Positions 29,583 to 50,789 of a DNA stretch of 64,000 nucleotides are shown here, piece by piece; within the stretch, counting starts at the first letter, position 1, and each line of letters starts with the position of its first letter. Source of the stretch: Natronorubrum tibetense GA33. Lineage in GTDB: Archaea; Halobacteriota; Halobacteria; Halobacteriales; Natrialbaceae. Where the stretch lies: contig NZ_KB913017.1 in NCBI RefSeq assembly GCF_000383975.1, positions 3,262,265-3,326,264 on the forward strand, given 5' to 3'. The notes beneath the pieces are model-generated. The model was not told the DNA's origin. It did not search any database and was given only the letters and a program-made list of their open reading frames with translations. A program made the translations under genes and the position numbers.

Positions 29583-30776
29583 TCACTGACAACTCTGACA
29601 GCCAAACCTTCCTGCAACCATACTGATCGGATTCTCTTCTAAAAGTTGTGAGTTGCAGTTCCCACAGTAGACTTCGTCGGTTACACCAGCACCGATCGCG
29701 TACGGTGCACGGATAGTATCAGTCTGATCACCGTCACTTACAGTAAATTCAATTTCTCCACGCTCGTACGTCACGAGCGTGGACGCAGTGGGATTGGTAT
29801 TCACCTCTATCGCGTGGCGTCGATAGATTTCCTGCTGTTTCTGAGCGAACCCTCGTTCTTTCTCCTGTAGGTGTTCCTCCAGTTCAGCTTCGAGGTCTTC
29901 TTTCTCGGTTTTGAGTTCCTGGCGTTTTTCGAGCGCCTCTACACGTTGTTGCTGTGATTCTGCGCTATCCACGTCCGTAGACAAGGTTTGGAGACGGTTT
30001 GAAAGCGAAGTTATCTCATTGCGATGGTCGTTAATTCGCTGTTCCTGTAGCTGCCGGTACTCTTCAAATTCTGAATCAGCAGCACGAGAGGCCGAGTGAC
30101 GGATTTCGTTGATCTCGTCCTGAACCCCTTCTACAGCGGCTTTCTGTCCCGCAGCGATTGCGTTGGTCACCTTGTTGGAGGCAATCGAAACATCGCTCTC
30201 GTCACTCCCTTCAGTTATTTCGTGACGCCAGCCCGATTTTGGGTTGAAAAACTCGTCAACGAGTATCTCTGTAACTCCTGGGAGTTGATCCTTCGACTCG
30301 ACGTCGATCGTCACGGCTTCTAAGAACTGTGTCTGATACTTGCTAACTGTCTCGACGTCGATTCGGACGAACACGCAGATGGCTGTCCGGTCGTAGTACG
30401 GGCTGAACGTCGCGTCCACGACCTTGATGTCACTCTTTACAATCCACGGAGGATACTGATAGTCGCTATCGGTCATCGAGTCCGTCAGAGCAAGCTGCCC
30501 GACAGTGGCCATCGCTGCCGCTTCATCGAGCAGCTGTTGCGTGAATTCGCTCTCTGGCGTGAGCAGACAAACAGCGTCCTCTTCGTCCTCTTGTGTTTCG
30601 TCGTCTAGAACGATTTCGAACTCGTGGTGGTCGCTGAAATTGATGTCGACGTGGCTGGGCAATTGTACCTGCCATCGGTTTCCGTTTTCGCGGACGGCAG
30701 CACCGAGGTCGTTCAAATATTCTCGGGTAAACGCTTCCAATGCGGATTGCGTTACCGCGTGAGTCACGTCAGTCAT
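29583..30776 (-). CDS. Helicase partner: coiled coil with C-terminal zinc ribbon, 397 residues
   Basis: ATG at 30776, overlapping the stop of the SNF2 gene by 8 bases, so the two are translated together. Residues about 1-190 form a strand-rich region (WQVQLPSHVDINF, YQYPPWIVKSDIKVVDATFS). Residues about 215-320 are a long coiled coil (EFEEYRQLQEQRINDHRNE, then QQRVEALEKRQELKTEKEDL). The end has a zinc ribbon (CGNC, then CQSC). The layout resembles the region that follows the helicase core in RapA/HepA-type SNF2 proteins, here as a separate subunit. It probably mediates target or partner binding for the helicase. Confidence 0.65.
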   Translation of the reverse strand: MTDVTHAVTQSALEAFTREYLNDLGAAVRENGNRWQVQLPSHVDINFSDHHEFEIVLDDETQEDEEDAVCLLTPESEFTQQLLDEAAAMATVGQLALTDSMTDSDYQYPPWIVKSDIKVVDATFSPYYDRTAICVFVRIDVETVSKYQTQFLEAVTIDVESKDQLPGVTEILVDEFFNPKSGWRHEITEGSDESDVSIASNKVTNAIAAGQKAAVEGVQDEINEIRHSASRAADSEFEEYRQLQEQRINDHRNEITSLSNRLQTLSTDVDSAESQQQRVEALEKRQELKTEKEDLEAELEEHLQEKERGFAQKQQEIYRRHAIEVNTNPTASTLVTYERGEIEFTVSDGDQTDTIRAPYAIGAGVTDEVYCGNCNSQLLEENPISMVAGRFGCQSCQ

Positions 30777-32526
30777 CGTCTGCCCCCAGATCGAAGCTTT
30801 CGAAGACGCCGCTGTTGAATTCCTCTACCTTCTGTGAGAGATCCTGTTGCTCCTCGAGGTCGATAGCCATCGAGTCAAAGTCGTTCTCAAGGTCGATCTC
30901 GGAGTCAGCGTTGGTGAGACGTTCGAAGATCTCGTCTTCGAAGCTCTGCCCGGAATCCTCGAGACGAGTAAGAATCGTGCTCAGTTCCCCGACCGTCTGC
31001 TGGAAGAGATCGATCTTGTGGTAGAGCCGTTCCAATACGTATTCCTCGATAGTGCCTTTCAGTCCCATGTTGAAGACGTAGACCTTGCGCTTCTGGCCGA
31101 TCCGGTGAATCCGCCCGATTCGTTGTTCGACCTTCATCGGATTCCACGGTAGGTCGTAGTTCACCATGATATTGCAAAATTGGAGGTTACGACCCTCGTT
31201 CATCGCGTCTGTGGACACGAGGACGCCCCCCTCTTCCCGGAACTGGTTCACGATGTCCTCCTTCTCCTGGCTCGAGTGCCCGCCGTGGAACGCGTGAGTC
31301 GTGTATCCCTGCTCGTCCAGCACTTGGAGGACCTGTCTCTGGGTCGGCCGGAACTGAGTAAACACGATAACGCGTCCCATATCGACGTTCTCACGGACTT
31401 CTTCGACGATATCGAATAGTCGCTCCTGCTTCGTGACCGTGTCAATCGCGTCGATCTTGTCGAGGATGGTTTCGAGTTCGTTCCGGTGAGTCAGCTCGTT
31501 CTGTTCGTCGAGCATTTTGAGAATCGTTTGTTCGAGTGCGGCCGGGCTGCTGACGACCTCCTTCTGGAGTAGCATCAACACCAGCTTCTGGCCGCTGTCT
31601 TGACTATAGGCGCCACGGACATACTTCGTCACTTCGTCGTAGAGTTCCTGCTCCGCCTCGCTCGGCTCGAAGGTGCGCGTGTCGATGATACGGTCTGTAA
31701 AGTCGATGTCCGTGTCCTCACGGCGGTTCCGGATCATTACTTGTCCCAGCCGCTGCTGTAACTCGTTCCGGTTCACCAGTGTCTCCTGATTGCTGTTTAC
31801 GAAGTATTGATGGAACGTGTCCCGACTGCCGAACAATCCGGGCCGGAGCAAGGAGACGATGTTGTAGAGGTCGGTAAGCTCGTTCTGAATGGGAGTCGCT
31901 GTGAGGAAGAACGCGTAATCGTAGGTAAGTTTCTCGATAAGTTCGTAGCGATCGGTCTCCTCGTTTTTTACATAGTGGGCTTCGTCCATGACGAGGACGT
32001 CCCAGTCTCGAGCGAGGACCATGGCCCGGTGTCGGTCGCTCTTCGCGGTGTCGATGCTGGCAATGATGCGATTGTGTGCGTCGAATCCCTGGAACTCATC
32101 GTCGTAGTTGCAGACGAACTCGAGACCGAACTTCTCGAGGAGTTCCCCTTGCCACTGTTTGGCCAGCTGCGCGGGGGTGAGGATCAGCACCGAATCGTCG
32201 GTCTCGCGGTAGTGCATTTCCTTCAGGATCATTCCCACCTCAATCGTCTTTCCGAGGCCGACTTCGTCCGCGAGGAGCGCCTTTCCGTCCATCTCGAAGA
32301 GGGCTCGGTGGGCTGCATCGACTTGGTGTTCGAGGAGTTTGACCTCCTCTTCGTCGACGTGCGTGAGCGATCGAAGTTCTGTGTCCGGCTGCCCCGCAAG
32401 AAGGCGATTTGCCACGACGGTCTGCCGGTGAAAGGGAAAATCAGAGATTCCCGAGGAATAGGAGTCGACAAGATCGTCCGGGTCATCGTGTGTGACCTCG
32501 ATGTCGACGAGGTCATCCTTTTCCAT
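30769..32526 (-). CDS. SNF2-family (HepA-like) ATP-dependent helicase, 585 residues
   Basis: Motifs in order are ALLADEVGLGKTIEVGMIL (Walker A, about residues 82-100), VMDEAHYVKN (DEAH-type motif II), TATPIQN (motif III), VIVFTQFRPTQRQ (motif IV) and QRIGRIHRIGQ (motif VI, near residue 480). It is a double-stranded DNA translocase that could remodel DNA-bound proteins. The chain ends soon after motif VI; the usual C-terminal RapA-like part is in the overlapping next gene. Together with the DUF1156 methylases and the DUF499 ATPase it makes a helicase-methylase-ATPase set, a grouping known from defence islands. Confidence 0.88.
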   Translation of the reverse strand: MEKDDLVDIEVTHDDPDDLVDSYSSGISDFPFHRQTVVANRLLAGQPDTELRSLTHVDEEEVKLLEHQVDAAHRALFEMDGKALLADEVGLGKTIEVGMILKEMHYRETDDSVLILTPAQLAKQWQGELLEKFGLEFVCNYDDEFQGFDAHNRIIASIDTAKSDRHRAMVLARDWDVLVMDEAHYVKNEETDRYELIEKLTYDYAFFLTATPIQNELTDLYNIVSLLRPGLFGSRDTFHQYFVNSNQETLVNRNELQQRLGQVMIRNRREDTDIDFTDRIIDTRTFEPSEAEQELYDEVTKYVRGAYSQDSGQKLVLMLLQKEVVSSPAALEQTILKMLDEQNELTHRNELETILDKIDAIDTVTKQERLFDIVEEVRENVDMGRVIVFTQFRPTQRQVLQVLDEQGYTTHAFHGGHSSQEKEDIVNQFREEGGVLVSTDAMNEGRNLQFCNIMVNYDLPWNPMKVEQRIGRIHRIGQKRKVYVFNMGLKGTIEEYVLERLYHKIDLFQQTVGELSTILTRLEDSGQSFEDEIFERLTNADSEIDLENDFDSMAIDLEEQQDLSQKVEEFNSGVFESFDLGADDD

Positions 32527-32650: not shown

Positions 32651-33175
32651 ATGATGTCGACGATATGGACGACCGCGTCTGGAACCACGGGGACCGTTGA
32701 CGAAACCGTCCCTGTAAAAGAATATTATCAGGGAGCTACCTTCCGTCCTGCCGCAGTTTTGGAAAGCAATCTCAGTGATTACTGTGAGACTAGCCTCTAT
32801 GTCTTGCTTGATGATGGGGGCTATGCGAGAGGGAATGAACCAAGCACTAATCTCCCGAATCAAACTAACGACCAGAATGAAGTCAAAGCTATGTTTCTTG
32901 ATTCCCTCGTAGGGTCGGATATCACGGTGATTTTACTACCATCAAGTAAGTTTGATGCGTACGTTACTCCGAACTGGGATCAACTGGTTAACCGTGCTAA
33001 ACCGGACACAATCTGGTGTATAGGAACGGCGAAGAGTTCTTTGGAGAACATCAACATACAAAAGTTGGAAAATAAAGGGTGCAAAGTCCTTCTCTATGAA
33101 CGAAGTGGAGTTGCTCCTATTGGTACCGAAATTCGAGATCAATTAATAGAGGAAGTCCGGGTCCGAGTTAGTTAG
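32651..33175 (+). CDS. Uncharacterised protein, 174 residues
   Basis: The ATG at 32651 (MMSTIWTTASGTTG) is preferred over upstream starts of unnatural composition. Residues about 95-150 have a Rossmann-like strand/helix pattern (DTIWCIGTAKSSLENINIQK, GCKVLLYERSGVAPIG), which may be a nucleotide- or sugar-binding fold such as TIR/SLOG-like proteins. That is a weak impression. It is plus-strand and stands between the SNF2 and the first DUF1156 gene, both on the other strand; its 3' end overlaps the methylase stop by 4 bases. Function unknown. Confidence 0.5.
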   Translation: MMSTIWTTASGTTGTVDETVPVKEYYQGATFRPAAVLESNLSDYCETSLYVLLDDGGYARGNEPSTNLPNQTNDQNEVKAMFLDSLVGSDITVILLPSSKFDAYVTPNWDQLVNRAKPDTIWCIGTAKSSLENINIQKLENKGCKVLLYERSGVAPIGTEIRDQLIEEVRVRVS

Positions 33176-35847
33176 ACGTCATCGAAGGAGGTATTCTCTC
33201 CAAGCAGCTTCCGATACGTATCATCTCCCGTTGCTTCGGCGAGGTCCCCACATACTTTTCGTAGCTCGTCATTGATCCCCCACTGTTCAACGTATTCCCT
33301 TGACGACCTTCCCTCTTCGAATAGAGAACGTAGGAACTGTGCTTTATCGAGTTCGTTTAAATCACGATCAGGGTTATCCATCTTGCTTCGGATGTATGCC
33401 TGTCGCTTTTCATTCTCCCAGGTTCCGAGAGTGAGTTCATTCCCTTCCATTTGGAAGAGCTGCATATCCTTCATCTCGTCAGAAGTCGCATTAGTCCCGC
33501 GAGATAGTTTATTGAGATCTGTGTACGTTGGGTTAGGCAATTCTAGTAGATCCAGAAAGACCTCGATTTCGCCATACTCAGTATCTTCTTGAATGATTCC
33601 ATAAATCTCATCGACTATCTCCTTTGCGGACATTATCTCGCCATCTTGGTGAACCTTCCCATGATGTTTTGAATACTCTGCAAAACATTTCCCCATCTCA
33701 ATAACACCGATATCGCCAGCAGCGAGCTCTCTGTTCTCCTCTAAACTTTTACGGGCTATGTTTGCTGTCCGTCGGATATTCCGACGTAAGGATCGCCAGG
33801 AGGTTGGAGTTCTTTCATCAGTTGGCCTGGCAACGATAACGATATCGAAGGAAACTGTTTCTCCTTTTGTGAATTTATGAAGATCAGAGTTTATCGGGTA
33901 TGTCGCAGTAACCTCGAAGCCGGTTTCGCAAAGCGCCTCTAGGAGTTCCCCCCATGACTCTGAACTGCTGTGATGATAGGTGAAAGCGACTACTCCCTCG
34001 TCTTTCAACGCAGTATTGATCCGAGAGAATGCTTGTTTGAGTTCGGATTCAAAGTCCTCATCTCCCTTTCCTGAGGCAGGGTTAACTACCATACTCTCCG
34101 CACGTGGCGTATGTTCAGTTTCAAAACAATCGTATTCATTCTCTAATACTGGCTTTAGCCATACATAGTGAAAGTCGGAGAGTTCGGAGTAGAGGATATT
34201 GTTATAGTACGGTGGATCCGTTATTACTGCATCATATTCATCCTCGGCATCGATGAGACGCATATCGCCTTGTTTGACGACCGAGTTTTGGCCAATCGGT
34301 TGTCTGAACTCATCGGTCTCATGCGTATCTTCGTTTTCCACATAGCGTTCAGTAGGAGAGTTAGCATATTCTACGCCTCGTAGGACCATCTCCCAGGTTT
34401 TTCGAAAGGTAATCATTCCATATTCGGTACCCCATGGATTGTTCTCGGCAGGACTTGTTGGCGGTTCATATGAATTTGTTCGCCACAAGTCCGCTATTTT
34501 TGATGCACTAGCCTGATACCCGACCATCATCGAGTTGCAGCGTAGAGTTTCGCTGAACGCCAGTAACAGGAACTCCTTCGCATTATCATTGTCTATATAA
34601 TCAATGGATTTTGATATTTTTGAGAGTGATAAAAGTTGACGAGAGTTGAACATATCTGACCAGTTTTCCACCCCATGACGTGGAAGATTCCCATTACCTG
34701 GCATCGTTCCTTCAAAGTGATTTGCGTCTGTTTTCCAGCCTGGTCGAATTGGCTTATCAGGGATATATTCCCGCAGTTCACTAGATGAATTCCATTCTTG
34801 TTCTGCTTTCTCGTAGAGCTGCTTGTCCGCAGGTGTAGCAGGTTTGTAGCCCTTTGTTTGACTCCGTTGTGCCCCATTTTCGTCGCAATGAGTGCAGTAA
34901 TACTCTACTGCAAATAGTCGACTATCAAATCCATCTCTTTCTTGTATTCGTTCAGTGACGGAGTAGCGTTGGCCACAGTCTGAGCAGATGTAGTCACCAT
35001 AGTCCACAGTCCCTTCTTGGGGGATGAACTCATGGTCACATTCACTACAGCTGCATTCCTCACGCCAATCGTCAACCAAGATCACTGATTCGCAATTGGG
35101 GCAAAGAACGTTGTCCTTGTCGTCATTCTCATATCTTCCCTTCGCTATCCGGTAGTCCTTGAATAGTGGAACCGTGTTTCCGCAAGAGGTGCAGTCAAGT
35201 TCCTTCACCCAGAAGTTGTACATCACATCGGCTTTGTGATCTCCGTGAGGACACTGGGTCTGATAGTACTGGAATATCTCATCCTTGACGTCAGACTTCA
35301 CCTGCTCGAATGCTTCTTCAAGCTCTTCAATTTCAGTACTGCCTGCTTCCATCTGCTTCTTTGTAACGAACCATGCCACCGGATTGAGGTCCCAACCTTC
35401 TGATTCCACACCAAATCGTGAAGCTTCAACAAGTGATGTACCTCCACCCATGAACGGATCAAGGACTTTCAGATCATTCACCCGGATATCCTTCGGATAT
35501 AAGTCCCAAAGCGATTCTGGGTCATCCATATCGACCTCTTGAATTTTCTGTACGAGGTCCTCACGACTGTTTCCACTCCCTCCAAGAGTTTGGTTCTGTC
35601 CGGGTTCGTAAATCTCGAAATCCTCTATATCCATATTTTCATTAAGGAGTGTATAGAGCGAAATAGCACGGAAGAGACAGCCCGGTCTTCTTGCCCACCA
35701 CTTGTGCATCGTGTAGATAGGGCGATACCATTGTTTCGCGCGGCTCTCCTTTGCAGCAATCTCGTTAACCCGTTCTATGGGAAATCCCCGTTCAATTGGA
35801 AGTTCTGACCGGTCACCGGATTGGCGATTTTCCTGCTCCTGAGACAT
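33172..35847 (-). CDS. Zn-ribbon DNA methylase, DUF1156/COG1743 family, copy A, 891 residues
   Basis: The start is at an ATG at 35847 (MSQEQENRQSGD), with a TATA-like box at 35878-35884. The DUF1156 head (IERVNEIAAKESRAKQWYRP, then MHKWWARRPG) is followed by motif I, LDPFMGGGTSLVEASRFG (near 125). Zinc-binding pairs (CPNC, CSCSEC, CSDCG, CTHC) occur in the middle. Motif IV is ITDPPYYNN (near 541) and the tail is helical. The DPPY order marks a beta-class amino-methyltransferase acting on adenine or cytosine. It closely resembles copy C (48117-50789) and less so copy B. It probably modifies host DNA for a restriction-like system using the SNF2 and DUF499 ATPases. Confidence 0.88.
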   Translation of the reverse strand: MSQEQENRQSGDRSELPIERGFPIERVNEIAAKESRAKQWYRPIYTMHKWWARRPGCLFRAISLYTLLNENMDIEDFEIYEPGQNQTLGGSGNSREDLVQKIQEVDMDDPESLWDLYPKDIRVNDLKVLDPFMGGGTSLVEASRFGVESEGWDLNPVAWFVTKKQMEAGSTEIEELEEAFEQVKSDVKDEIFQYYQTQCPHGDHKADVMYNFWVKELDCTSCGNTVPLFKDYRIAKGRYENDDKDNVLCPNCESVILVDDWREECSCSECDHEFIPQEGTVDYGDYICSDCGQRYSVTERIQERDGFDSRLFAVEYYCTHCDENGAQRSQTKGYKPATPADKQLYEKAEQEWNSSSELREYIPDKPIRPGWKTDANHFEGTMPGNGNLPRHGVENWSDMFNSRQLLSLSKISKSIDYIDNDNAKEFLLLAFSETLRCNSMMVGYQASASKIADLWRTNSYEPPTSPAENNPWGTEYGMITFRKTWEMVLRGVEYANSPTERYVENEDTHETDEFRQPIGQNSVVKQGDMRLIDAEDEYDAVITDPPYYNNILYSELSDFHYVWLKPVLENEYDCFETEHTPRAESMVVNPASGKGDEDFESELKQAFSRINTALKDEGVVAFTYHHSSSESWGELLEALCETGFEVTATYPINSDLHKFTKGETVSFDIVIVARPTDERTPTSWRSLRRNIRRTANIARKSLEENRELAAGDIGVIEMGKCFAEYSKHHGKVHQDGEIMSAKEIVDEIYGIIQEDTEYGEIEVFLDLLELPNPTYTDLNKLSRGTNATSDEMKDMQLFQMEGNELTLGTWENEKRQAYIRSKMDNPDRDLNELDKAQFLRSLFEEGRSSREYVEQWGINDELRKVCGDLAEATGDDTYRKLLGENTSFDDV

Positions 35848-35877
35848 TGTAGATGTGTACCCGAAAACAAGTGAGGG

Positions 35878-35884
35878 ATATAAA
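35878..35884 (-). promoter_or_regulatory. TATA-like box of DUF1156 copy A
   Basis: The minus-strand reading TTTATAT lies 31-37 bases before the ATG at 35847. It supports that ATG over the longer frame reaching 35976, whose extra residues are not conserved in copy C. Confidence 0.45.
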
Positions 35885-36117
35885 TGTACTCGACATCGGC
35901 GGGGCAGACTCGAGGTGCGAACGAAGTATTTGCTTTGTAGAAGAAAGTGATTTCCATCCGTAAACGCATGGCTCACTCGAACTCGAGAAAAACTACATTC
36001 TATCGACTATCCAGAAGTTCTCCAAAAATCTAGTAAGGAGCTGGTCGAGGCGGAGTTCAAAGAGAGGCAAACATCCGATTAGCTACGTGTCTTCTTGATC
36101 GCCTCTAGTTATCTCTG

Positions 36118-37341
36118 CTACGATAGCCGGAGATACGTCCAGAGTGGGACCTGGATGATCGGCTTTGGGCCGTCGGTATTGACGGTGATTCCATCGTCCA
36201 GTGCTGACCTTGCAGTTGTGAGCACCACCCCGAATGCTGGTTCCGCGTCAAACGTAGCCTTCTGGTCATCACTGAGCTCACCTCCGTACTTGCCTTGCTC
36301 TACGTATGCCTGTCTCTGCTTGGTGAAGGTGCCCGTCACAGGGCTGTACATCTGCTCATCGACTCTGTCTCGATCGCTCTCGCAAGCATCGCTCTCGAGT
36401 AACTCCTGTAACGCATCGAAATCAGGCGTATCTCGACTCATCTGGAGTTCTTCCAGGGGCCGATTGTAAGACCACAGTATCGGAACGGGAGTACCGTTTA
36501 TCTTGGGTACGAAGTCGACTGTGCCCTTTGATCCCACCCAGAACTTGACTACACCGCGCTTCGGATCGTGTGGATGATTGAGTTCGTTCGACAGCCGGAT
36601 CGTGTGATCGAACGCGACCGCCTTCGCCAGTGCCTCGTCTAGTCCGGGCTTACGCCGGAGCAAGTCATTGAGATCGTTCCGACAGAACGCGTTCGTGATT
36701 CCTGGATCCCGCAGGTAAAATCGGATTTTCCGCGGTCGCTGATTGTCGTACTCTTGTGCTGCAGATAGCAGGTGGAGTCGTGAAAGGGCGCTGAGATACT
36801 TATCTCGGAGGGTTCGGCGATCGACATCGAGAACGTCGGTTAGCTCGTTGAAGCGAATATCCCTGGTCGGGTGTTCGTGAGCGGTAAGGGCACAAAACCG
36901 CTCCAAGTCGAGCGTGTCCTTTACCCCTCCAAGATCCGTCGTAGCATGAAGGGGGTCGTTTCTGAAGTCCGTGAGTAGCTCTCGCGGATGGGATTCGAAA
37001 TCGACATCGTCTCGTCCACGGATTATGTCGACAAACTGCTCCGCGTCAATCGAGATGTCGTCTCCGGCGATCCGGAGCGTCAGCATTCCCCCGCTCGTGC
37101 AGTAATTCGCGATCTCTCGTCGGACCGTCGATGGTTCAGTAATTGCGTCGCCACTCTGTGCTTCAATCCCGGATACGAATCGGTCAGCGTCTCTCTTCTC
37201 GACAGCCTCATGTAACGCCTCTCGAAATTTGCTTTCATCGAACCGCTCGGTCGGTGGCGTGACTTTGATATTCCGGTATTGCACCTCGAGGAAATCCGAG
37301 AAGCCAATGCGGTAGACACACGTTGTTTTATAACAGCTCAC
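36118..37341 (-). CDS. Truncated relative of the archaeal ATPase family, lacking the P-loop domain
   Basis: The frame is open from a GTG at 37341; a GTG at 37284 (MQYRNIKVTPP) is a likelier start because the promoter of the divergent McrB gene lies at 37327-37333. The protein has a wHTH (TRDIRFNELTDVLDVDRRTL), a LRDPGITNAF segment and a C-terminal domain ending in PIIQVPLWTYLRLS. These resemble the second half of the ATPase at 10166-11821 (GIDRRTLDDYFDYLE, LRDPLHMAMFS, YYIPFWLLLLAI). No Walker motif is present. Either this is a natural nuclease-like-only version, or the 5' half was lost when the McrBC genes were placed beside it. Confidence 0.6.
   Translation of the reverse strand: MSCYKTTCVYRIGFSDFLEVQYRNIKVTPPTERFDESKFREALHEAVEKRDADRFVSGIEAQSGDAITEPSTVRREIANYCTSGGMLTLRIAGDDISIDAEQFVDIIRGRDDVDFESHPRELLTDFRNDPLHATTDLGGVKDTLDLERFCALTAHEHPTRDIRFNELTDVLDVDRRTLRDKYLSALSRLHLLSAAQEYDNQRPRKIRFYLRDPGITNAFCRNDLNDLLRRKPGLDEALAKAVAFDHTIRLSNELNHPHDPKRGVVKFWVGSKGTVDFVPKINGTPVPILWSYNRPLEELQMSRDTPDFDALQELLESDACESDRDRVDEQMYSPVTGTFTKQRQAYVEQGKYGGELSDDQKATFDAEPAFGVVLTTARSALDDGITVNTDGPKPIIQVPLWTYLRLS
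37327..37333 (+). promoter_or_regulatory. TATA box of the McrBC-like operon
   Basis: TTTATAA is centred 28 bases before the McrB ATG at 37358, the spacing of a leaderless haloarchaeal promoter. It lies inside the longest possible reading frame of the divergent gene. Confidence 0.55.
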
Positions 37342-40388: not shown

Positions 40389-40393
40389 CCTCA

Positions 40394-40825: not shown

Positions 40826-43456
40826 TTAATCATGAAAGAGCCCTCGATAGCCGTCATCGTTAGTAAGCCTTGCCAGCTCTGCCGCTAATTCGACAAGCTC
40901 GCTGGTTGTTTCCGTTTCCCGTTGATCGCGGAGTTCTCCGGGAGATTCCGATTTCTGACGGAGCAGATGTACCCGGTCGAGTGGCGTCAACTCTGACTCC
41001 GCCGTTGATGTGAGATATGTCCGTCGGGACTCGTCGGCCCAGCTAGCGATTCCAAACGTGTCACCGGCCGTAACGAGCCCTTTCCGGCGTAGGTCATCGG
41101 GAGAAACGTTGGTGCTATAACAGAGTCGTTGGAGATCACGATGTGATGGCGCTTCCATCTCGAGGAGGCTGAGATAGATTTCATCAGGCGTGACCTCTCC
41201 CGAGACAAGTTTCTGGAATTTAGCTACCACTTCGACTGGGTCCATTGTATCTCCCCCGCGGTGGACTTGACCGTGGTGCTGAGAGTACACCCGGAGACAT
41301 CGTCCCAGTTCAATGATAGAGATCTCCCCCTCGGAGGGGGACTGGTCACTGTCCTCAATCTGGTCTCGTGCACGCCCGGCGGAGCGATGTGCTTTCCGGC
41401 GGAGTGCTGACCAACTGATCGGTTCTCTTCCCTGAGAATTTGTGGGGCGTGCAACGACGATAACGGTAACATTCGGTTTATTATCACCGAAGAGCTCACT
41501 CGCGTTGGCAGCGATTGGGTACATCGCTGTCAGTTCGAAATCCTCCGAGCAAAGCGCGTCGACGAGGCCACCCCACGCATCAGCGTCGCCATTGCGATAG
41601 GTGAACACCAGAATCCCGTCGTCCGCAAGTACTTCTTGTATTCTCCCGAACGCGGTTCCGAGTTCATACTCGAATGTTGCCTCATCCTTTTCTGTCGCGG
41701 GATTAGAAATGATACTGTTCGAACGCGGCGTCGTTTCCGGCTCGAAACAATCGTATGAATCGGACAGGAGGATCCGCTGCCAGACGTAGAAAAAGTCGGA
41801 TACTTCTGAGTATACGACGTTGTCATAGTACGGCGGATCAGTGATGACGGCGTCGTATTCTTCCTCCAGTGAAACCTCACGCATATCTCCCTGGTGGAGT
41901 GTGTACTCACCACCGATCAGCTCCTCAAACGATTCCGTTTCGTGGAGTTCCTCGTTCTCGAGATATCGCTCAGTCGGATCGTGGGCGAAATCGACTGCGT
42001 CCAGTATTTTCTGCCAAGTCGTGGTGAACGTTCCTCTCCCGGCTCTCGTGCCCCAGACGTTGTTTTCCGCGTAGCTCGTCCGTGGCGTGTAGGAGTTCCG
42101 ACCGAGTGCGCCCTCGATCTTGCTCCCAGCACTGTTGTACCGTGAGAAGTTGTTCTGGAATAGCAAGGAATCACTGAAAGCTAACAGCAGGAACTCTTGA
42201 ACATCGGGATCGTCGATTTTGTCGATCGACCGGAGGAGTGTCGATAGACTGTAAAGCTGTCTGCCATTGAACATGTCCTGCCACGTCTCGTACCCATGCT
42301 GGAAGATATCGTTCCCACTGATCGAGGAAGCCGCTGTGATTGCACCCTCCGGAATCTCTCCATCTGGTGCATAATCCGACAGATTATCGTTCTGCTCCCA
42401 CTGCTTAGCAGCGTCTTCGTAGCGTTTGATATCTCCCTCGCTTGGGGACTTGTATCCCTTGTACGTCGATCGTTCTTCCCCCTCGTCCTCACAATCCGTG
42501 CAGTAGTACTCTATCGCGTACAGCTCCTCCCCGTAGGACTGGCCCTCCGAAATCGCGTCAACAATTGGGTATTTGAGCCCGCACGAGGGGCATCCGTACA
42601 TTCCACCCTGGGAAACCGGTCCGTTCGCCGGAGCGAACTCATGTCCACAGTCTGAACAGACGGATTCTGTCGAGATATCGTCCGTCAAGAAAATCTCACT
42701 ACAGTCCGGACAGACTACATGATCGCGGTCGCTATCCTCGTATCGGCCTTTTGCGACACGGTAGTCTTTGAACAGCAGTATCGTCTCGTCACAAGAAACG
42801 CAATCAAGGGAACGAACCCATAGTGCGTACACGACGTCGGCTACGTGGTCACTGTCATGTGGACAGTCCGTCTGGTACAGTTCAGCAAGCTCGTCCGAAA
42901 TATCTGCTTCGACTTGCTCGAAGGCGTTCTCTAAGTCATCTCTTTCGACTTCAGCCGCCTCGAACTCTTTTTTTGTCACGAACCACGCAACCGGGTTCAG
43001 ATCAATTCCCGTCACCGATGCTCCGAAGCGGCTGGCTTCCAAGAGGCTTGTTCCCCCACCCATGAACGGATCGAGGACACTGATGTCCGCTACCTGTACA
43101 TCTTGTTGATATAGCTCCCAAAGCTCACTTGGGTTTCCCAGATCCACACTGTCAATTAACGCTCCGATATCAGGTTCGTCATCTTCGTTCCCGTTCGTAA
43201 ACTGCGACAGAGATGCATCGTCTCCGCTTCCCGGATGATCACGTACACTGACGCGAGCGGGATCGTCAAGCAGCGTGTAGAGAGAGATCGCTCTGAAAAC
43301 GCTTCCCAGTTGGCGAGCCCACCATTTGTGCATCGTCGTCAGGGGACGGTAGTGGAGTTTCGCTCTGCCCTCTCGCTCGGCCAAGGCACTTACCTCTGAA
43401 ATGGGGAACCCCCTCTCTATCGGTCGCCGGTCGGGCTCTTCGGCTGGGTCAGGCAT
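40826..43456 (-). CDS. Zn-ribbon DNA methylase, DUF1156/COG1743 family, copy B, 876 residues
   Basis: ATG at 43456. It has the same architecture as copy A: DUF1156 head (REGRAKLHYRPLTTMHKWWA), motif I LDPFMGGGTSLLEASRFG (near 125), Cys pairs (CVSC, CPDC, CSDC, CPSC, CTDC), and DPPYYDNVVYSEV (near 537). It is the most divergent of the three, for example MHKWWARQLGSVFRA in place of MHKWWARRPGCLFRA, and has shorter N- and C-terminal ends. It follows the DUF499 ATPase by 39 bases, the natural pair of a COG1483-COG1743 module. It is therefore likely the cognate methylase of that ATPase. Confidence 0.88.
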   Translation of the reverse strand: MPDPAEEPDRRPIERGFPISEVSALAEREGRAKLHYRPLTTMHKWWARQLGSVFRAISLYTLLDDPARVSVRDHPGSGDDASLSQFTNGNEDDEPDIGALIDSVDLGNPSELWELYQQDVQVADISVLDPFMGGGTSLLEASRFGASVTGIDLNPVAWFVTKKEFEAAEVERDDLENAFEQVEADISDELAELYQTDCPHDSDHVADVVYALWVRSLDCVSCDETILLFKDYRVAKGRYEDSDRDHVVCPDCSEIFLTDDISTESVCSDCGHEFAPANGPVSQGGMYGCPSCGLKYPIVDAISEGQSYGEELYAIEYYCTDCEDEGEERSTYKGYKSPSEGDIKRYEDAAKQWEQNDNLSDYAPDGEIPEGAITAASSISGNDIFQHGYETWQDMFNGRQLYSLSTLLRSIDKIDDPDVQEFLLLAFSDSLLFQNNFSRYNSAGSKIEGALGRNSYTPRTSYAENNVWGTRAGRGTFTTTWQKILDAVDFAHDPTERYLENEELHETESFEELIGGEYTLHQGDMREVSLEEEYDAVITDPPYYDNVVYSEVSDFFYVWQRILLSDSYDCFEPETTPRSNSIISNPATEKDEATFEYELGTAFGRIQEVLADDGILVFTYRNGDADAWGGLVDALCSEDFELTAMYPIAANASELFGDNKPNVTVIVVARPTNSQGREPISWSALRRKAHRSAGRARDQIEDSDQSPSEGEISIIELGRCLRVYSQHHGQVHRGGDTMDPVEVVAKFQKLVSGEVTPDEIYLSLLEMEAPSHRDLQRLCYSTNVSPDDLRRKGLVTAGDTFGIASWADESRRTYLTSTAESELTPLDRVHLLRQKSESPGELRDQRETETTSELVELAAELARLTNDDGYRGLFHD

Positions 43457-43495: not shown

Positions 43496-46400
43496 TCATT
43501 CGAACTCGAGAGTGATATCGATGGTCGTCGCACTTTCCGGGATCTGTTCCAGGATGTCGGCGACCGTATCGTGGGACTGGCCGACTTGCAGTTGCAGTTC
43601 TGCGTGGGTCTTCTCAAATGTCGCCGCGTCGCCGAAGCCAAGAGGTGCCGCACCCTCTCCTTGACAGGTGATCGAAATCACCCCGTAGCTAATCGTACCT
43701 GCCTCGTGGGACTGTTGCCAATCCGATCGGAGATCGGATGCACTGTCACCCTGATATTCGAACTTCCAAGTATCGTCCTTCGGAACACGGAAGCCTGCAC
43801 CGGGGAACCAGTCCGAAGGATCGGTCGATCCCATCGTCCCGAGTTCGTATTCCGGGTCGTCTCCACCGAGATGTGCCAACAAGAAGTGTCTTACTTCATC
43901 TTCAGTTGCCTCAGGGGCACAGTTCGTCTGAACGTCACCGATACTAAATGTGGCTTCGTCGTCGAGATCGCCGATGTATTCGAGTATCCGCTCGCCAGTG
44001 TTGTCGTCGACCATCGGAACGAGAGTAACTGAAAGGGGGTCCCGATTGCCCAGCGAATTGACGTAGTCGCCGCCGGTGTTGACCCGATGGCCATCCGAAA
44101 TCAGGCCACTCACCGCTCCTCGGAACGCTGACTCCGTCTCGTCATCGGATAAGAACACTTCGGAGTCGTTTCGGATCGCAGTCAGGACTTGACCAGTTTT
44201 CGCCTCGCCTGCTGCATCAATCGCAGCTTCGATACGAGAACGAACCTCAGTTACACCGATTCGATTAGTATCGGAAACATCTCGAAGTGTTGCATCCGAG
44301 CGAGCCTTGGTGATGATTTCGCTCCCACTAACCAGTACGTACTGGTCCTGAGCTGCCAGCCGTCCCACAGCCATCATAATATTGTCTTGCGGATCACTGC
44401 CCTCAATCCAGACGTCCGTTCGTTTCAGAACCTCGAGTTCGAACGCTCCCACCTCAACTTCTGCAGTGCCACCACTGAATTTCCGCCGCAGCTCGTTCTC
44501 GATATCGTCGACAGTCCATCGCTCAACATCGTCTTGTAACACCAGGACTGTATCAGGACTCAGGTTCTGCAACTCGTCGGTGAACCCGGTATTGTCATGT
44601 GCAAGGACAGGTTTGTCTTCAAGTCCATCCTCCACCGCGTTGACGACCGCTTGTTTGCTCCCGGGAATCGGGTACGTCGGATCCATCAGGAACTGTTCGT
44701 AGATATCGTCTATCGTCGCTTCACCGCGACGATCTAGTCGGTTTTGAACCAGGTCCCAGACATGCCGTTGAAGATCAAACGGGTCCGCCTCGGTGGCCGC
44801 GGCAATGTTGCTCGCACTCAGTTCGTCCTCCGCGGAGACGAAGTTCCCGAGCGTCATTTCCGCGGCGTAGTCGAACTCATTCAGCAGGTCGTCACCGTCG
44901 ATGACCTCGCCGTACGCACTGCTCAAGCGTTCTTCGAGGTCTTCGGTGTACTCCTCGTGGAGCTCCTCGATACCCTGGATAATCTCGTCGCTCAGATTCG
45001 GATCGTCTTTTCTGATCTCCGCACCGATTACTTCCTTCGCTTTGCCGAGGAACTTCTCCTGCTGGTCGGTTGTGGAAATGCGTTTGTCGTTTTTGGGTTG
45101 AACGAATACTAGGGTGTTTCGCCACTGTCTGCCGGCCGGCTGGTTTTTAATGATTTCAGCCACGTCCGACCCACTCCACGGACCGTTCTTCACGACGACC
45201 TTGATATTCTGGCTATCGGGAACACTCTCGAGTTCGCCTTCGGCATTGAATCCAACAGGGTACGATCCTGCGCCAAAGATAGAGTTGACCGTCTCCCCGA
45301 GAAGCTCCATTGCGTCGGAATCGTCCACATCTCTGGCCGCGTTCTTCACCAGCGATCGCGGGTTCTCGTCTTCTCGAATAACGAATTGGTCATCGTTACG
45401 CCAGAGGTGGTACACCTCCCCTTGGAGGCGCTCCAGATCGACAATAATATCGTTTACTCGGTCGCCGGCGTGGTAGGTCCCGAGAATGATGTCCGATGTC
45501 GTCGCCCCCTCGGCGAGCCCTGGCGTGAGCGAGTAGATGAGAACGGTACTGAGGATCGGGCGTCCGAATGGGATGTCCGTATCGGCCAGTCGGTCCACGA
45601 TGTCGTCGTAACACCGGTCTGGCCGCGCGTGTTCGACGTTGATACGGGTGAGTTCGTCGTTGTAGTCGACCGCGTCGACCGTCCCGTGAGTGACGAGGTC
45701 CGTCTCCTGGTAGCTGTCTACGAGGATCTTCGCGAACAGGTACAGCATCCCTCGGGTCGCACCGGATTCTGTCTCCGCGAAGTAACGCGTCTTCAGCGAG
45801 TCGATCAGCTCCGGGTGGAACGGATAGGTATCCTCCATATCTCCCCGAAGCCCGTCCGGTAGGTCAACGTAGTCTGTCCCGTCGTACGCTTGAATGTACT
45901 CGTCGACGAGCGATTCGACGGCAGCCATATCCACCGACCCCGGTTCGACGAGGCGGTGACGCAGCACGTCCCTGATGTCCACCTGATTGGACATGTTCAC
46001 CTCGACGCGGGTTTGCCGCGAGAGAATGTCGTGGACATCCGATCCCTCTCGTAGCACGGAGACGATGGCGAAGAGGTTCGTCCGTGAGGTGGTCTCTAAT
46101 AGTGCTTGGAGGAACCCCTTGTTGGCGCTTAGACGGCGGCCATCGAGCGTTCCAAACCAATCCTCGAGTTCGTCCATAAAGAAGGCGACTGTCCGATCGC
46201 CAACCGCGTCCTCGATTACGTCGATGGTCGGGTACCCACCCTCTTCGTCGTAATCCTCTTCGCTGATCTCGTAGTCGAGTGCATCGAACAGCGGTTCCCA
46301 GAGGTAGTCGTACTGCTCCTTCTGGAGCGAGACGACGACGGGGAGGCCATCTCGCGGGAGTGTCCCGTTGAAATCGTCGATTCGGCCGTTGGCCCACTCC

Positions 46401-46726
46401 TCGACGACTTCCGGAGAGTCGAAACAGTGGTACATCGCCACCATCTGATGGGACTTCCCCGTCCCGTATGGGCCGTACATTTCGTGGATGCGAGTGTTGT
46501 CCTCGCCAGAAAATGTGTCGCGGAGCCGTTTCAGGGAGTCTTCTAGCCCCCCAGTCAGCAATGTCCGCTGGAAGAATCGTTCGGGGTCCGCCTCCAGCGA
46601 GTCTTCGTTGTCCTCGACGTCGTACAGCCGGATCTGCCCTTTTATTAATCCGTCTCCCTCGGTGAGTTCCTTGCTGAGCGTGAGCACGTCGTCAATGCTC
46701 GTGTCCACCGATCGTTCCATACTCAT
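43496..46726 (-). CDS. DUF499 (COG1483) AAA+ ATPase, 1076 residues
   Basis: The start is at an ATG at 46726 (MSMERSVDTS), because the longer frame adds an unlikely basic leader and the decayed copy at 47 kb is alignable only from here. Walker A is MYGPYGTGKSH (about residues 83-93) and Walker B is VAFFMDELEDW (about 174-184), followed by a long helical arm. A strand-rich region near the C-terminus (TWKFEYQGD, SYGVISITCQGEGAAPLG) ends in TTIDITLEFE. DUF499 ATPases occur beside DUF1156 methylases and SNF2 helicases in defence islands. The energy-driven role in DNA recognition or cleavage is unproven, and no nuclease motif is obvious in this chain. Confidence 0.85.
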   Translation of the reverse strand: MSMERSVDTSIDDVLTLSKELTEGDGLIKGQIRLYDVEDNEDSLEADPERFFQRTLLTGGLEDSLKRLRDTFSGEDNTRIHEMYGPYGTGKSHQMVAMYHCFDSPEVVEEWANGRIDDFNGTLPRDGLPVVVSLQKEQYDYLWEPLFDALDYEISEEDYDEEGGYPTIDVIEDAVGDRTVAFFMDELEDWFGTLDGRRLSANKGFLQALLETTSRTNLFAIVSVLREGSDVHDILSRQTRVEVNMSNQVDIRDVLRHRLVEPGSVDMAAVESLVDEYIQAYDGTDYVDLPDGLRGDMEDTYPFHPELIDSLKTRYFAETESGATRGMLYLFAKILVDSYQETDLVTHGTVDAVDYNDELTRINVEHARPDRCYDDIVDRLADTDIPFGRPILSTVLIYSLTPGLAEGATTSDIILGTYHAGDRVNDIIVDLERLQGEVYHLWRNDDQFVIREDENPRSLVKNAARDVDDSDAMELLGETVNSIFGAGSYPVGFNAEGELESVPDSQNIKVVVKNGPWSGSDVAEIIKNQPAGRQWRNTLVFVQPKNDKRISTTDQQEKFLGKAKEVIGAEIRKDDPNLSDEIIQGIEELHEEYTEDLEERLSSAYGEVIDGDDLLNEFDYAAEMTLGNFVSAEDELSASNIAAATEADPFDLQRHVWDLVQNRLDRRGEATIDDIYEQFLMDPTYPIPGSKQAVVNAVEDGLEDKPVLAHDNTGFTDELQNLSPDTVLVLQDDVERWTVDDIENELRRKFSGGTAEVEVGAFELEVLKRTDVWIEGSDPQDNIMMAVGRLAAQDQYVLVSGSEIITKARSDATLRDVSDTNRIGVTEVRSRIEAAIDAAGEAKTGQVLTAIRNDSEVFLSDDETESAFRGAVSGLISDGHRVNTGGDYVNSLGNRDPLSVTLVPMVDDNTGERILEYIGDLDDEATFSIGDVQTNCAPEATEDEVRHFLLAHLGGDDPEYELGTMGSTDPSDWFPGAGFRVPKDDTWKFEYQGDSASDLRSDWQQSHEAGTISYGVISITCQGEGAAPLGFGDAATFEKTHAELQLQVGQSHDTVADILEQIPESATTIDITLEFE

Positions 46727-46887
46727 GTTATTTCGATTCGTTAGCAGGGACGATAATGAAGGTACGCATCTTGGATCCGTTCGCGTCACGTGGTTTTTTC
46801 GCGAGACGACCGAAAGCTGTGAAACAGGAGGATGCTGTAGACGCGGAAGGGCCCGGACAGACTACGCTATCAGAGAGGTCAGTCGTC

Positions 46888-47190
46888 TTAGAACTCGCTG
46901 ATATCGACGTTAACGTCGAGCAGTTTGAGGTAGGTCTCGTCGCCGCTGGCTTCGGCCAATCTCTCGCAGAGTTCACGCAGATCATCGTCTTCCCCTCGGA
47001 TCGGTACTCGCTCCGATCTTTACCCTCTTCGAACCGCTAGCGGAGGAAGTGGACCTTCTCCAAGGGCGTCGGATTCCAGTGTGTCGTCATCACTGTCGAT
47101 ATCATAGAGTTGAATCTGACCTTTGAGCAGGCTGCCGCACTCAGTAAGCTCTGAGCTGAGCGTCAGTACGCCATCGTTTTTGTGTTGAGA
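46888..47190 (-). pseudogene. Chimeric remnant: 5' end of a DUF499 gene joined to 3' end of a DUF1156 gene
   Basis: Read on the minus strand, about 47190 to 47071 encodes GVLTLSSELTECGSLLKGQI then LYDIDSDDDTLESD, matching residues 13-46 of the DUF499 ATPase next door (VLTLSKELTEGDGLIKGQIR). From about 47069 the match switches frame to the C-terminus of DUF1156: TPLEKVHFLR, a TAG stop, RFEEGKDRSEY, a frame slip, then LRELCERLAEASGDETYLKL and a final TAA at 46888-46890. All of the middle, about 5.5 kb in an intact pair, is missing. It is the scar of a second ATPase-methylase module lost by internal deletion. The antisense frame at 46756-47040 is a shadow. Confidence 0.8.
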
Positions 47191-47271
47191 ATCATTTCCT
47201 ATAGAATCTCTACTGGGTAGAAACTAAATTGGATAGTAAAAACTATTACTTAGTAGTGTGTGAGTGAGGGT

Positions 47272-47865
47272 ATGGGGAAAGAGAAACGATCGATCGTGTT
47301 CACGAGCGAGGGGATTACCGTCAAGGAAGAGCGCAAAGCACCGCTTTCGAACGATACGAAGTACGTCACTATCGACGAGCTCGAGTGGGACGATTTCCCG
47401 ATCGAGAACCTCACGATGGAGGTCACGAGTGTCTGGCCGAAAGTGAGTGACGAAGACGAGACCGCGCTAGAAGCCCTGGAATTCGAAGTAGAACGCCTGG
47501 AGCGAGCCGATGCCCAGACCGAAGCGTCGACGTCGGACGACTTCTGGGAGCAGGTGTACGAACAGACGGGAATCACGTACGAGGACGGAGAGATCACACT
47601 CAGTGGGAATAAAAACGCCAAGGATAACCTGGTCGCGTTCGTCAACTTCCTGCTCGTCAACGGATACCTCACGGAAGGCGATCTCCCGATCAAAAGCGGC
47701 TGGAAGCGGTACCTGATCAATACGGAGCCGCTTCATCAGAAGGGAGGATCGATGGCAGAGGATGTCGAGGTCACTGATGGGGTCTATCTCGAGACGAAGT
47801 ACAGTCGAAAAGACATCTGCAAGAAGATCAAGGAACTCGCAGAGCGGGTCGGTGAGCTGGAATAA
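47272..47865 (+). CDS. Uncharacterised protein, 197 residues
   Basis: ATG at 47272 (MGKEKRSIVF); a GTG at 47260 would add four residues. AT-rich sequence at 47225-47250 serves as promoter. The first 70 residues look strand-rich (SIVFTSEGITVKEERKAPL), the middle is helical and acidic, and the end is a helix (YSRKDICKKIKELAERVGEL). No known motif and no membrane segment. It stands alone on the plus strand between the chimeric remnant and DUF1156 copy C, so it may have been part of the lost module or be a separate passenger. Confidence 0.6.
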   Translation: MGKEKRSIVFTSEGITVKEERKAPLSNDTKYVTIDELEWDDFPIENLTMEVTSVWPKVSDEDETALEALEFEVERLERADAQTEASTSDDFWEQVYEQTGITYEDGEITLSGNKNAKDNLVAFVNFLLVNGYLTEGDLPIKSGWKRYLINTEPLHQKGGSMAEDVEVTDGVYLETKYSRKDICKKIKELAERVGELE

Positions 47866-48116
47866 CGATGTCATCGCAAATCGAGCACTGAATCACTACG
47901 TTTGAATGCCTGCCTAACAACCAGTCACACGAAAAGTTCCAGTGGAAACAAGGGGGTGTGATAAGATCAAACGTTGCGACGTACATGACTAGCTTGTTAT
48001 TTGCTGATTAATATATTCGTGAATCCGAATTGCTACTTTTGTCGAGTGAGGGAAAGTGATTCTGATAACAAAATTTATGCAAGTACGATCAACTATGAGA
48101 TCATCGAAAACCAGTC

Positions 48117-50789
48117 CTAGTCCTCAGCAAACTCGAGCAGCGACGTATCGACACCGAGCATCTTCAGGTATGTGTCGTCACCCGTAGCCTCGGCGAGACC
48201 CTCACAGACGTCCTGAAGTTCGTCGGTATCCCACTGCTCGAGATATTCACTCGTCGATTTGTCTTGTTCGAAGCGATACCGGAGGAAGTGTGCCTTATCG
48301 AGAGCGGTCAGATCACCGTTGTCCTCCTGGACCTTGCTCTGGACGTAGGCCTGGCGCTTTTCGTCGGCCCAGTCACACAGGACGAAATCATTGCCCTCGG
48401 TTCGGAAGAGGTGCATCTCTTTCATCGTCTCTTCGGCGGCATCGGAGTGTTTGAGATGCTTGTTTAGGTCGTCGTAGGACGGGTTGTACGCCTCGAGGAG
48501 ATCGAGGTAGACGGCCTGTTCGCCACGGGTGTTGTCCTGAATAATCCCGTAGATTTTCTGGACGACCTCCTTGGCGGTCATAATATCGCTCCCACGATGA
48601 ACCTCGCCATGATGTTTGGAGTACTCCTGGAAACACTTCCCCATCTCGATGACACCAATGTCCCCAGCTGCGAGATCACGACTCTCCTCGAGCGTTTCTC
48701 GAGTTTCGGCAGCCGTTCTGACGATACGTCGGCGGAGAGAGTTCCATGAGATCGGTCGATGGTCCTCGACAGGACGAGCGACGATGACGATGTCGAAGGA
48801 AACAGCTTCACCACCGATGAACTTGTTCAGATCAGAATTGATCGGATACGTCGCCGTGATCTCGAAGTCGTTCTCACAGAGCGACTCAAGTAACTCGCCC
48901 CAGGATTCCTCGTCGCTGTGGTGATAGGTGAACGCGAGGATGCCGTCGTCTTTCAGGGCTTGTCGGATAACGGCAAGTGCTTCGCCCATCTCGTGTTCGA
49001 AGTCCTCCGCGGTCTTGTCGAGATAGGGGTTCGTCACGATGGATTCCGCACGTGGGGTTTTGTCTTCATCAAAGCCAGGATATTCGTCCTTAAGAAGGAT
49101 TTTTTGCCAGACGTAGAAGTAGTCAGCAACTTCTGAGTAGATAATATTATCGTAGTATGGAGGGTCGGTGATCACCGCGTCGTATTCGTCCTCTGCGGTT
49201 ATGTTCCGCATGTCATCCTGATAAACCTCAGAATTTAAACCAATCGGTTGTGCGAACGCAGGTGTTTCATTGTTTTCGCCATTGTCGATATGACGTTCAG
49301 TCGGGGAATTAGCGTACTCAACTCCGCGAATGGTCATATCCCACATAGCGGCAAACGAACCGGACCCATGCTTGGTACCCCACAAATTGTTTTCAATAGG
49401 TCGTTGTGGCGCATCGAAAGAATTTGTGTTAAATATATTGGCAATAAGATTCTTCCCAGGGTTATAGGACGTCATCAACGTATTGTAATTCAAACTTTCT
49501 GTAAATGTTAGCAATAGATACTCTCTTATATCACGACTTTTCTCATCATCGATACGGTTGAGAAGTTTCGAAAGTGACAACAACTGCCTCGAATTAAACA
49601 TATCTGTCCAATCTTTGAGGTTATGCTGAAATACGTCGTTCCCGCTCACTGATGACGCCGCCGTGATAGCACCTTTAGCAATCTCTTCATCAGGCACATA
49701 TTCATGGAGATCCGTTCGCGTTTCCCACTCACGTTTCGCCTCTTCGAACAGTTGCTTGTCGGCGGCTTCTGCCTTTTTATAGCCTTTGTACGAGCTCTTC
49801 TCTAACTCCTGCTGGTCACACTCTTTACAGTAGTATTCGACCGCATAGAGGCGCAGGTCGTACCCACCCTGTTCGGCAATGCCGTCAGTGATCGACTCTT
49901 TCTGTCCACATTCGGGACAATTATAATAGCCTCCTCGAGATACGTTTCCTTCCTTGGGAACGAACTCATGGTCACACTTGTCGCACTCGCTTTCTTCTTG
50001 CCAGTCGTCGACGAGCGTCACTGCCCCACAGCCAGGACAGAGGACGTTGTGCTTGTCGTCGTTTTCGAACCGACCAGCAGCGACGCGGTAGTCTTTGAAT
50101 AGTGGAACGGTATGACCACAGGAGACACAATCCAGTTCCTTCACCCAGAAATTGTACATCACGTCCGCGTCGTGCTCACCGTCGCAGTTCGGACACGGAG
50201 TCCTATAGTATTGGGTGATTTCGTCAGCGACGTCTTCTTTGACTTGCTCGAACGCCTCCTCAAGTTCCTCGACGTCAGTCTGGCCGGCCTCGAGTTGCTT
50301 CTTCGTAACGAACCATGCCACAGGGTTCAGATCGACCCCGACAGAGTCGACGCCGAAGCGAGAAGCCTCTACAAGTGAAGTCCCACCACCCATAAACGGA
50401 TCGAGAATCTTCTTGTCTTTGATTCGGACGTCCTTCGGATAGAAGTCCCACAGTGATTCCGGATCGTCCATCGAAACCTCGCGAATAGCGTCGACGAGAT
50501 CGTCATTGCTCAATCCATTGCTGCCGAGCGTCTGATTTTCGCCCGGTTCGTACACGTCAACGTCGTCGATCGTCGTCTCGTCGTCGAGAAGTGAATAGAG
50601 CGTAATCGCGCGGAAAAGACACCCCGGCCTGCGTGCCCACCACTTGTGCATTGTGTAGATGGGGCGGTACCACTGCTTCGCCCGACCCTCCTTTTCGGCA
50701 ATCTCGTTCACTCGCTCGATCGGGAAGCCGCTTTCGATAGGGAGTTCAGAACGACCCTCCGACCGCTTAGATTGTTCCTGTTCAGACAT
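48117..50789 (-). CDS. Zn-ribbon DNA methylase, DUF1156/COG1743 family, copy C, 890 residues
   Basis: ATG at 50789. The domains are as in copy A, to which it is most similar over its full length (SELPIESGFPIERVNEIAEK, MHKWWARRPGCLFRA). Motif I is LDPFMGGGTSLVEASRFGVD near 126 and motif IV is DPPYYDNIIYSEV near 538. Zinc pairs (CPNC, CVSC, CPGC, CDKC, CPEC, CKEC) are intact. No ATPase or helicase gene is directly beside it on the same strand. Three intact paralogues in 18 kb would allow three different DNA sequences to be modified, or redundancy after module loss. Recombination between A and C is possible given their likeness. Confidence 0.88.
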   Translation of the reverse strand: MSEQEQSKRSEGRSELPIESGFPIERVNEIAEKEGRAKQWYRPIYTMHKWWARRPGCLFRAITLYSLLDDETTIDDVDVYEPGENQTLGSNGLSNDDLVDAIREVSMDDPESLWDFYPKDVRIKDKKILDPFMGGGTSLVEASRFGVDSVGVDLNPVAWFVTKKQLEAGQTDVEELEEAFEQVKEDVADEITQYYRTPCPNCDGEHDADVMYNFWVKELDCVSCGHTVPLFKDYRVAAGRFENDDKHNVLCPGCGAVTLVDDWQEESECDKCDHEFVPKEGNVSRGGYYNCPECGQKESITDGIAEQGGYDLRLYAVEYYCKECDQQELEKSSYKGYKKAEAADKQLFEEAKREWETRTDLHEYVPDEEIAKGAITAASSVSGNDVFQHNLKDWTDMFNSRQLLSLSKLLNRIDDEKSRDIREYLLLTFTESLNYNTLMTSYNPGKNLIANIFNTNSFDAPQRPIENNLWGTKHGSGSFAAMWDMTIRGVEYANSPTERHIDNGENNETPAFAQPIGLNSEVYQDDMRNITAEDEYDAVITDPPYYDNIIYSEVADYFYVWQKILLKDEYPGFDEDKTPRAESIVTNPYLDKTAEDFEHEMGEALAVIRQALKDDGILAFTYHHSDEESWGELLESLCENDFEITATYPINSDLNKFIGGEAVSFDIVIVARPVEDHRPISWNSLRRRIVRTAAETRETLEESRDLAAGDIGVIEMGKCFQEYSKHHGEVHRGSDIMTAKEVVQKIYGIIQDNTRGEQAVYLDLLEAYNPSYDDLNKHLKHSDAAEETMKEMHLFRTEGNDFVLCDWADEKRQAYVQSKVQEDNGDLTALDKAHFLRYRFEQDKSTSEYLEQWDTDELQDVCEGLAEATGDDTYLKMLGVDTSLLEFAED

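Follow-up and report, generated by a model that had tools for sequence, protein, structure and literature searches.

A DUF499-centred methylase locus of Natronorubrum tibetense with McrBC as its candidate nuclease

The window analysed here is a stretch of 64,000 nucleotides from the chromosome of Natronorubrum tibetense GA33 (contig NZ_KB913017.1), in which positions 29583-50789 hold three full-length DUF1156 methylases, a DUF499 ATPase and a SNF2 helicase, all with intact motifs, together with an McrB/McrC gene pair. Judged by its gene content, its recurrence and the way its parts have been exchanged, this locus is probably the chromosomal copy of a haloarchaeal DUF499-centred restriction-modification system, related to bacteriophage exclusion (BREX), with McrBC as its nuclease. 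A preliminary description of the same DNA had seen no dedicated nuclease; one is probably present, as an McrB-type AAA+ protein with an NxxD motif and an McrC with a PD-(D/E)XK site are both encoded between the methylases.

Components of the locus and their recurrence

The main components are given below in window coordinates, with strand and with supporting matches in brackets.

29583..30776, minus: coil protein, 397 residues, its gene overlapping the SNF2 gene by 8 bases
30769..32526, minus: SNF2/RapA-like helicase, 585 residues (SNF2-rel_dom, E 1.8e-35; DrmD, HmaA)
33172..35976, minus: DUF1156 amino-methylase C (Pfam, PADLOC)
37358..38593, plus: McrB-like AAA+ protein with GTPase-type NxxD motif, 411 residues (AAA_5, 2.7e-17)
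38586..40388, plus: McrC-like PD-(D/E)XK nuclease, the proposed effector (PF10117, 7.1e-8)
40394..40789, minus: s131, small core subunit of 131 residues (in 29 of 30 complete loci)
40826..43456, minus: DUF1156 amino-methylase B, putatively a fixed member of the core block
43496..46789, minus: DUF499 AAA+ ATPase (DUF499, E 4.2e-7; HmaC, 9.1e-17)
48117..50789, minus: DUF1156 amino-methylase A, apparently of the exchangeable kind (Pfam, PADLOC)

By homology, methylase C probably starts at residue 44 of its open reading frame (35847) and the DUF499 protein at residue 22 (46726). The methylases, ATPase and helicase named in the preliminary description are real, full-length open reading frames with domains above cut-off (DUF1156 in the three methylases at E 2.5e-10, 1.3e-8 and 6.8e-11), and the host genome has three DUF1156 genes in total, all at this locus. 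The top PADLOC model was HmaB for each methylase, HmaC for the ATPase and DrmD for the helicase (1.8e-80, ahead of BrxH and HmaA, 1e-58). The DPFMGGGT and DPPYY motifs and the Zn-finger cysteines are intact in A, B and C, and the methylase motifs are conserved across 81 aligned homologues, with a few variants in the B group. A and C had been called alike and B divergent, which the identities bear out (A to C 61.5%, B ~45% to either), and the gene for the small protein behind B is genuine and conserved, with a family of 59 sequences at related loci.

McrB was identified by NCBIfam and PDB searches as well, and its Walker A, Walker B and MNMSDR motifs are conserved in 59 homologues. The McrC active site (P-D...D-S/T-K) is retained in 58 of 58 homologues; a sequence search for solved McrC relatives returned none. 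The DUF499 Walker motifs are conserved in 57 homologues.

Related loci were collected by two scans. In the first, a genome collection was queried with the methylases, giving 63 loci, mostly haloarchaeal, on which a tblastn search with the window proteins found a recurring gene layout. In the second, six proteins were queried separately, since selection on the methylase was to be avoided, against 194 near-complete genomes of the same class, and the matches were clustered by position. This gave 30 loci holding the coil protein, SNF2, DUF499, a DUF1156 methylase and McrB within ~25 kilobases (the G-numbered genomes partly coincide with the public contigs, so the counts of 63 and 30 are not independent). 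A complete locus was found in 28 of the 194 genomes (~15%), a figure for this sample and not a census. Of the DUF499 genes of the window's kind (47% identity or more), 30 of 31 lay inside complete loci, as did 30 of 30 close SNF2 genes (70% or more) and 30 of 36 McrB genes. The s131 gene and McrB are neighbours on opposite strands in all 29 loci with s131, and the coil gene adjoins SNF2 in all 30. In this comparison of neighbourhoods, which had been named beforehand as a possible refutation, the ATPase, helicase and methylases do travel together, and the earlier assignment of these parts to the helicase-methylase-ATPase (Hma, or DUF499-centred) type of defence locus agrees with the Pfam and PADLOC matches and with the 30 recurrent loci.

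Two layouts were seen, one with a single methylase and one of the window type, in which B follows DUF499, A lies on its upstream side and a third methylase is often present as well (next to SNF2 in genomes G085, G110, G124 and G135, beside A in G051). The RefSeq annotation of a Halorientalis litorea plasmid has the gene order of the window; beside the system this plasmid (L130, 23285-30471) also carries two tandem genes, one of the PD-(D/E)XK nuclease family and one for a UvrD-type helicase, both absent at the window locus. Viral contigs held distant methylase relatives only and no DUF499 relative, and virus-borne copies of the system are not supported. An orphan McrBC at locus L074 (7420-10436), whose McrC groups within the branch of the system itself, is apparently the leftover of a lost locus.

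For the SNF2 helicase, RapA was the best solved relative; the motifs of the window helicase are conserved in 58 homologues, and Pfam found SNF2 and helicase C domains only, with no nuclease domain, in its 585 residues. The coil protein was modelled (pLDDT 84) with a beta-rich N-terminal part, a long antiparallel coiled coil and a C-terminal Zn ribbon, and a fold search gave no significant match. It evolves fast but follows SNF2 (r 0.84). Derivation of the coil protein from a split-off RapA/BrxHII helicase C-terminus is suggested by size, position and topology; the hhalign probability was 21% and Foldseek was not significant, and we do not claim it. On two cyanobacterial plasmids (L131, 4074-6843; L139, 2854-5623), a SNF2 gene (37%) is followed by a gene for a 346-residue protein, with the other parts absent.

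Block exchange and methylase swapping

In a mirror-tree comparison over 34 complete loci, pairwise identities of DUF499, McrB, McrC and s131 correlated with one another at r 0.92-0.98, and those of the same four with SNF2 and coil at r 0.79-0.87. On these data McrBC is a near-invariant member of the haloarchaeal system and not a mere neighbour, as it occurs at 30 of 30 complete loci and correlates at r 0.92-0.98 with DUF499 and s131.

The window also bears the marks of a replacement, when compared at the DNA level with a Natronorubrum bangense plasmid. The plasmid matches the window at 88% over the SNF2/coil segment (29572-32566) and again over the DUF4143 remnant (36124-37308), and identity drops to 67-70% over 37318-46704, with the break at 37308/37318. 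Beyond the exchanged block it rises again, to 88% over the old DUF499 5' end (47066-47190) and 97% over the s201 region (47205-47888). The features at the two junctions are as follows.

36118..37341, minus: DUF4143 gene lacking its 5' part, the scar at the left end of the exchanged block (407 residues, against 614-620 in relatives)
46913..47062, minus: methylase 3'-end remnant at the right junction (69-74% DNA identity to methylase 3' ends of related loci)
47066..47190, minus: 5' remnant of a former DUF499 gene, right scar (88% DNA identity to the DUF499 starts of L047 and L091, with a protein-level match in support)
47260..47865, plus: s201, accessory gene of 201 residues between methylase A and DUF499 (close relatives only)

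This pattern is most simply explained by replacement of DUF499, methylase B, s131, McrC and McrB as one unit, and the methylase remnant at 46913-47062 was presumably carried in with them. The s201 family has three members, the copy at L047 being 97% identical, and a Pfam search with s201 gave no match.

The methylases behave in two ways. Their variable region covers residues ~315-530, between the last Zn finger and DPPY; among methylase pairs at least 90% identical elsewhere its median identity is 59%, and by position and behaviour we take it to be the putative target recognition region. In this region C and A are 48% identical, against 66% outside it, and for group A the values are 0.58 in the region and 0.73 outside. 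Methylase A tracks DUF499 weakly (r 0.24 for the body, 0.37 for the recognition region), and at single-methylase loci the recognition region correlates with every other component at only r 0.14-0.18. Across 157 locus pairs with near-identical DUF499-McrBC, the median identity of the recognition region is 50%; in the cleanest pair, L102 and L046, DUF499 is 98% identical, McrB 99%, McrC 98%, SNF2 100% and coil 99%, and the recognition region 50%. Such natural swaps beside near-unchanged effectors are ready pairs for the question of whether the methylase sets the target. The coil protein was considered as a co-determinant of specificity and rejected (recognition-region r 0.00, Mantel p 0.47; it follows SNF2 instead).

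Methylases like A and C thus seem to be swapped, apparently freely. Methylase B is evidently the exception, with a recognition region at 0.69 against 0.65 outside that tracks DUF499 at r 0.97, as would be expected of a fixed member of a DUF499-B-s131-McrC-McrB block. The earlier view of a set expanded to three methylases stands as to their number and length; as to their standing it needs amendment, A and C being exchangeable and B fixed in the block. Block exchange and a decoupled methylase, taken together, suggest more than linkage, and leave the effector role of McrBC unproven.

Proposed working and its alternatives

In the working that we propose, the DUF1156 amino-methylases would read a short DNA motif through residues ~315-530 and methylate the host's own DNA, and the same methylase would provide target recognition for restriction, like PglX in BREX. 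At an unmethylated site, DUF499 with s131 and the SNF2 motor with its coil protein would load on the DNA, and these loaded parts would activate the McrB ring and the McrC nuclease. If restriction recognised its sites separately, methylase swaps would expose host DNA. In this working A and C would supply differing specificities open to exchange, and B would sit fixed in the block. The s131 model is confident (pLDDT 93) and its topology is compatible with the published iSTAND description; Foldseek gave weak P-loop-like matches only (best E 0.26), and s131 is possibly an inactive STAND protein of the BrxF/BrxB kind. We would tentatively extend the proposed working to two tiers of methylase, a possibility to which we give somewhat less than even weight: B would be the constant one built into the effector block, and A and C would be swappable and retarget protection and cutting alike. 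Importing one methylase gene would then change immune specificity and leave the McrBC cutter unchanged.

Several points weigh against a system in which McrBC is the nuclease. Every functional statement made here is drawn from sequence, and physical linkage by itself inflates mirror-tree correlations. McrBC and s131 are transcribed towards each other and do not share an operon, and six McrB relatives lie outside complete loci. E. coli McrBC cleaves modified and not unmodified DNA, a trigger different from the one proposed.

One alternative is two linked but separate systems, in which the BREX-related part would block unmethylated DNA by other means (for example a replication block) and McrBC, as a Type IV enzyme, would attack modified DNA of foreign origin or bring about the death of a cell that acquires a foreign methylase. 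In its favour, McrBC forms a convergent transcription unit of its own, the McrBC enzymes already known depend on modification, and haloarchaeal relatives of it exist without the other genes. A host-killing response of McrBC to foreign methylation is described in PMC2614495. We consider this arrangement rather unlikely, in view of the near-invariant co-occurrence, order and co-evolution of the genes and the replacement in one block. McrBC moreover keeps an identity of 97-100% where the recognition region of the methylase is entirely different, and Pfam found no known modified-base-binding domain in the 411-residue McrB, where an undescribed one is possible.

It is improbable that A, B and C are redundant copies with no roles of their own, in a defence island that is decaying or growing passively. 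Scars and a truncated gene at the locus and broken methylase genes in some relatives would fit such a history; against it, all three keep their full length and intact catalytic and Zn motifs, fall in separate branches with differing recognition regions, and recur as a three-methylase layout in G051, G085, G110, G124 and G135. Still more remote is the idea that the adjacent DUF262/GmrSD enzyme does the cutting for the methylases. Its gene stands immediately past that of methylase A, and the protein has the two GmrSD domains, but of 63 related loci only 2 carry a homologue, whereas McrBC is present at practically every complete locus. Of the cutters that had been offered earlier, McrBC is thus retained, and the GmrSD enzyme appears to be a passenger and was rejected as core nuclease for want of conservation. 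PglZ was rejected as well, being absent from the window. Returning to the restriction system with McrBC as its nuclease, these comparisons make McrBC the candidate answer to where the nuclease lies.

Neighbouring genes and comparison with known systems

The GmrSD-type (DUF262) gene lies at 51482-53377 (plus strand) and is a PADLOC candidate, HEC-05. Further to the right, 56049-61079 (minus) encodes a 1676-residue protein with sacsin-type and NO VEIN C-terminal domains (PADLOC TmtA, 3e-233), and a DDE transposase gene (61427-62248, plus) stands at the right edge of the island. To the left, 15482-19760 (plus) encodes an Eco57I-like N6 methylase (779 residues) and a CoiA-nuclease-like protein (424 residues) on the same strand. 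A G+C-rich gene run at 22944-29028 (minus), with weak Csm3-like, Cmr3-like and HNH matches, is probably a haloarchaeal RAMP (HRAMP) cluster, CRISPR-derived and array-less; its genes 27407-28381 and 28384-29028 both have homologues beside the McrBC/DUF499 locus in L032, L034 and L037, and one of them in L031.

Among known systems, DUF499-centred ones have been divided into three types, with the helicase nuclease-fused, HKD-fused or PglZ-associated (PMC12839542). The co-location of a DUF499 AAA+ ATPase, a DUF1156 N6-type methylase and a Swi2/Snf2 helicase, the mark of BREX-related systems, is found here. With the Hma or Type-1 BREX-related systems (PMC8565338, PMC12839542) the locus shares the core of helicase, DUF1156 methylase and DUF499-type ATPase; in 79% of Type-1 systems a C-terminal PD-(D/E)XK domain is fused to the helicase (PMC12839542), whereas the window helicase ends at 585 residues and the candidate nuclease, McrC, is a separate unit. 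The marks of the Type-2 BREX-related systems (DUF3780, an N-terminal HKD nuclease on the helicase) were absent by Pfam and PADLOC among the locus proteins scanned.

In Type I BREX, PglX is the specificity factor (PMC11341690), and the window locus would resemble it in using a methylase so and in having a BrxC-like ATPase; it differs in that no PglZ, BrxL or BrxA was found there and that McrBC is the candidate nuclease. For the YprA-like helicase of DISARM and ARMADA (DrmA/DrmB, DUF1998), no DUF1998 match was found in the proteins scanned, and the DrmA model match in PADLOC falls on the SNF2 helicase, far below DrmD. Pbe-like haloarchaeal loci (L075-L082) likewise pair SNF2 (53-57%) with a coil-containing protein (22-26%) encoded after it, but differ in their Mrr-type nuclease and PbeA-like helicase and in lacking DUF499, DUF1156 and McrBC. 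In six of them (L075, L076, L077, L078, L079 and L082), SNF2 (~55%) accompanies a coil fused in a ~1100-residue protein, an Mrr-type nuclease, a ~298-residue protein and a divergent PbeA-like helicase pair.

A census of McrBC (PMC11090510) reported McrB branches linked to methyltransferases and a DISARM-like cassette, deferred their treatment and did not mention DUF499; like the present locus these branches join McrBC to DNA methyltransferases and SWI2/SNF2, and they differ in that the linkage is with PglX-like methylases and YprA helicases. We found no description of the present gene combination in the open-access papers searched, subscription papers and supplements lying outside this scope, and its novelty is provisional.

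The closest likeness is to the Type-3 BREX-related systems (PMC12839542), which also have DUF499, a DUF1156 methylase with more than one Zn finger, a SNF2 helicase without fused nuclease and a small extra subunit. The window locus differs from them in having McrB and McrC, a separate coil protein and up to three methylases, and in the lack of PglZ; the sole PglZ of the genome is on another contig (C5:153139-153612, L004; a frame of 721 residues). Other haloarchaeal loci match the PglZ type, with DUF499, PglZ, methylase and an s131-like gene, homologues of s131 occurring also in such PglZ-type DUF499 loci, and in related haloarchaeal loci the nuclease position is held by PglZ or an Mrr-type enzyme. 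By gene content, then, the core looks like that of a Type-3 BREX-related system in which McrBC stands where PglZ would be, and, if this is true, the nuclease slot of DUF499 systems, filled elsewhere by a fused PD-(D/E)XK domain, a fused HKD domain or PglZ, would be filled by McrBC as well.

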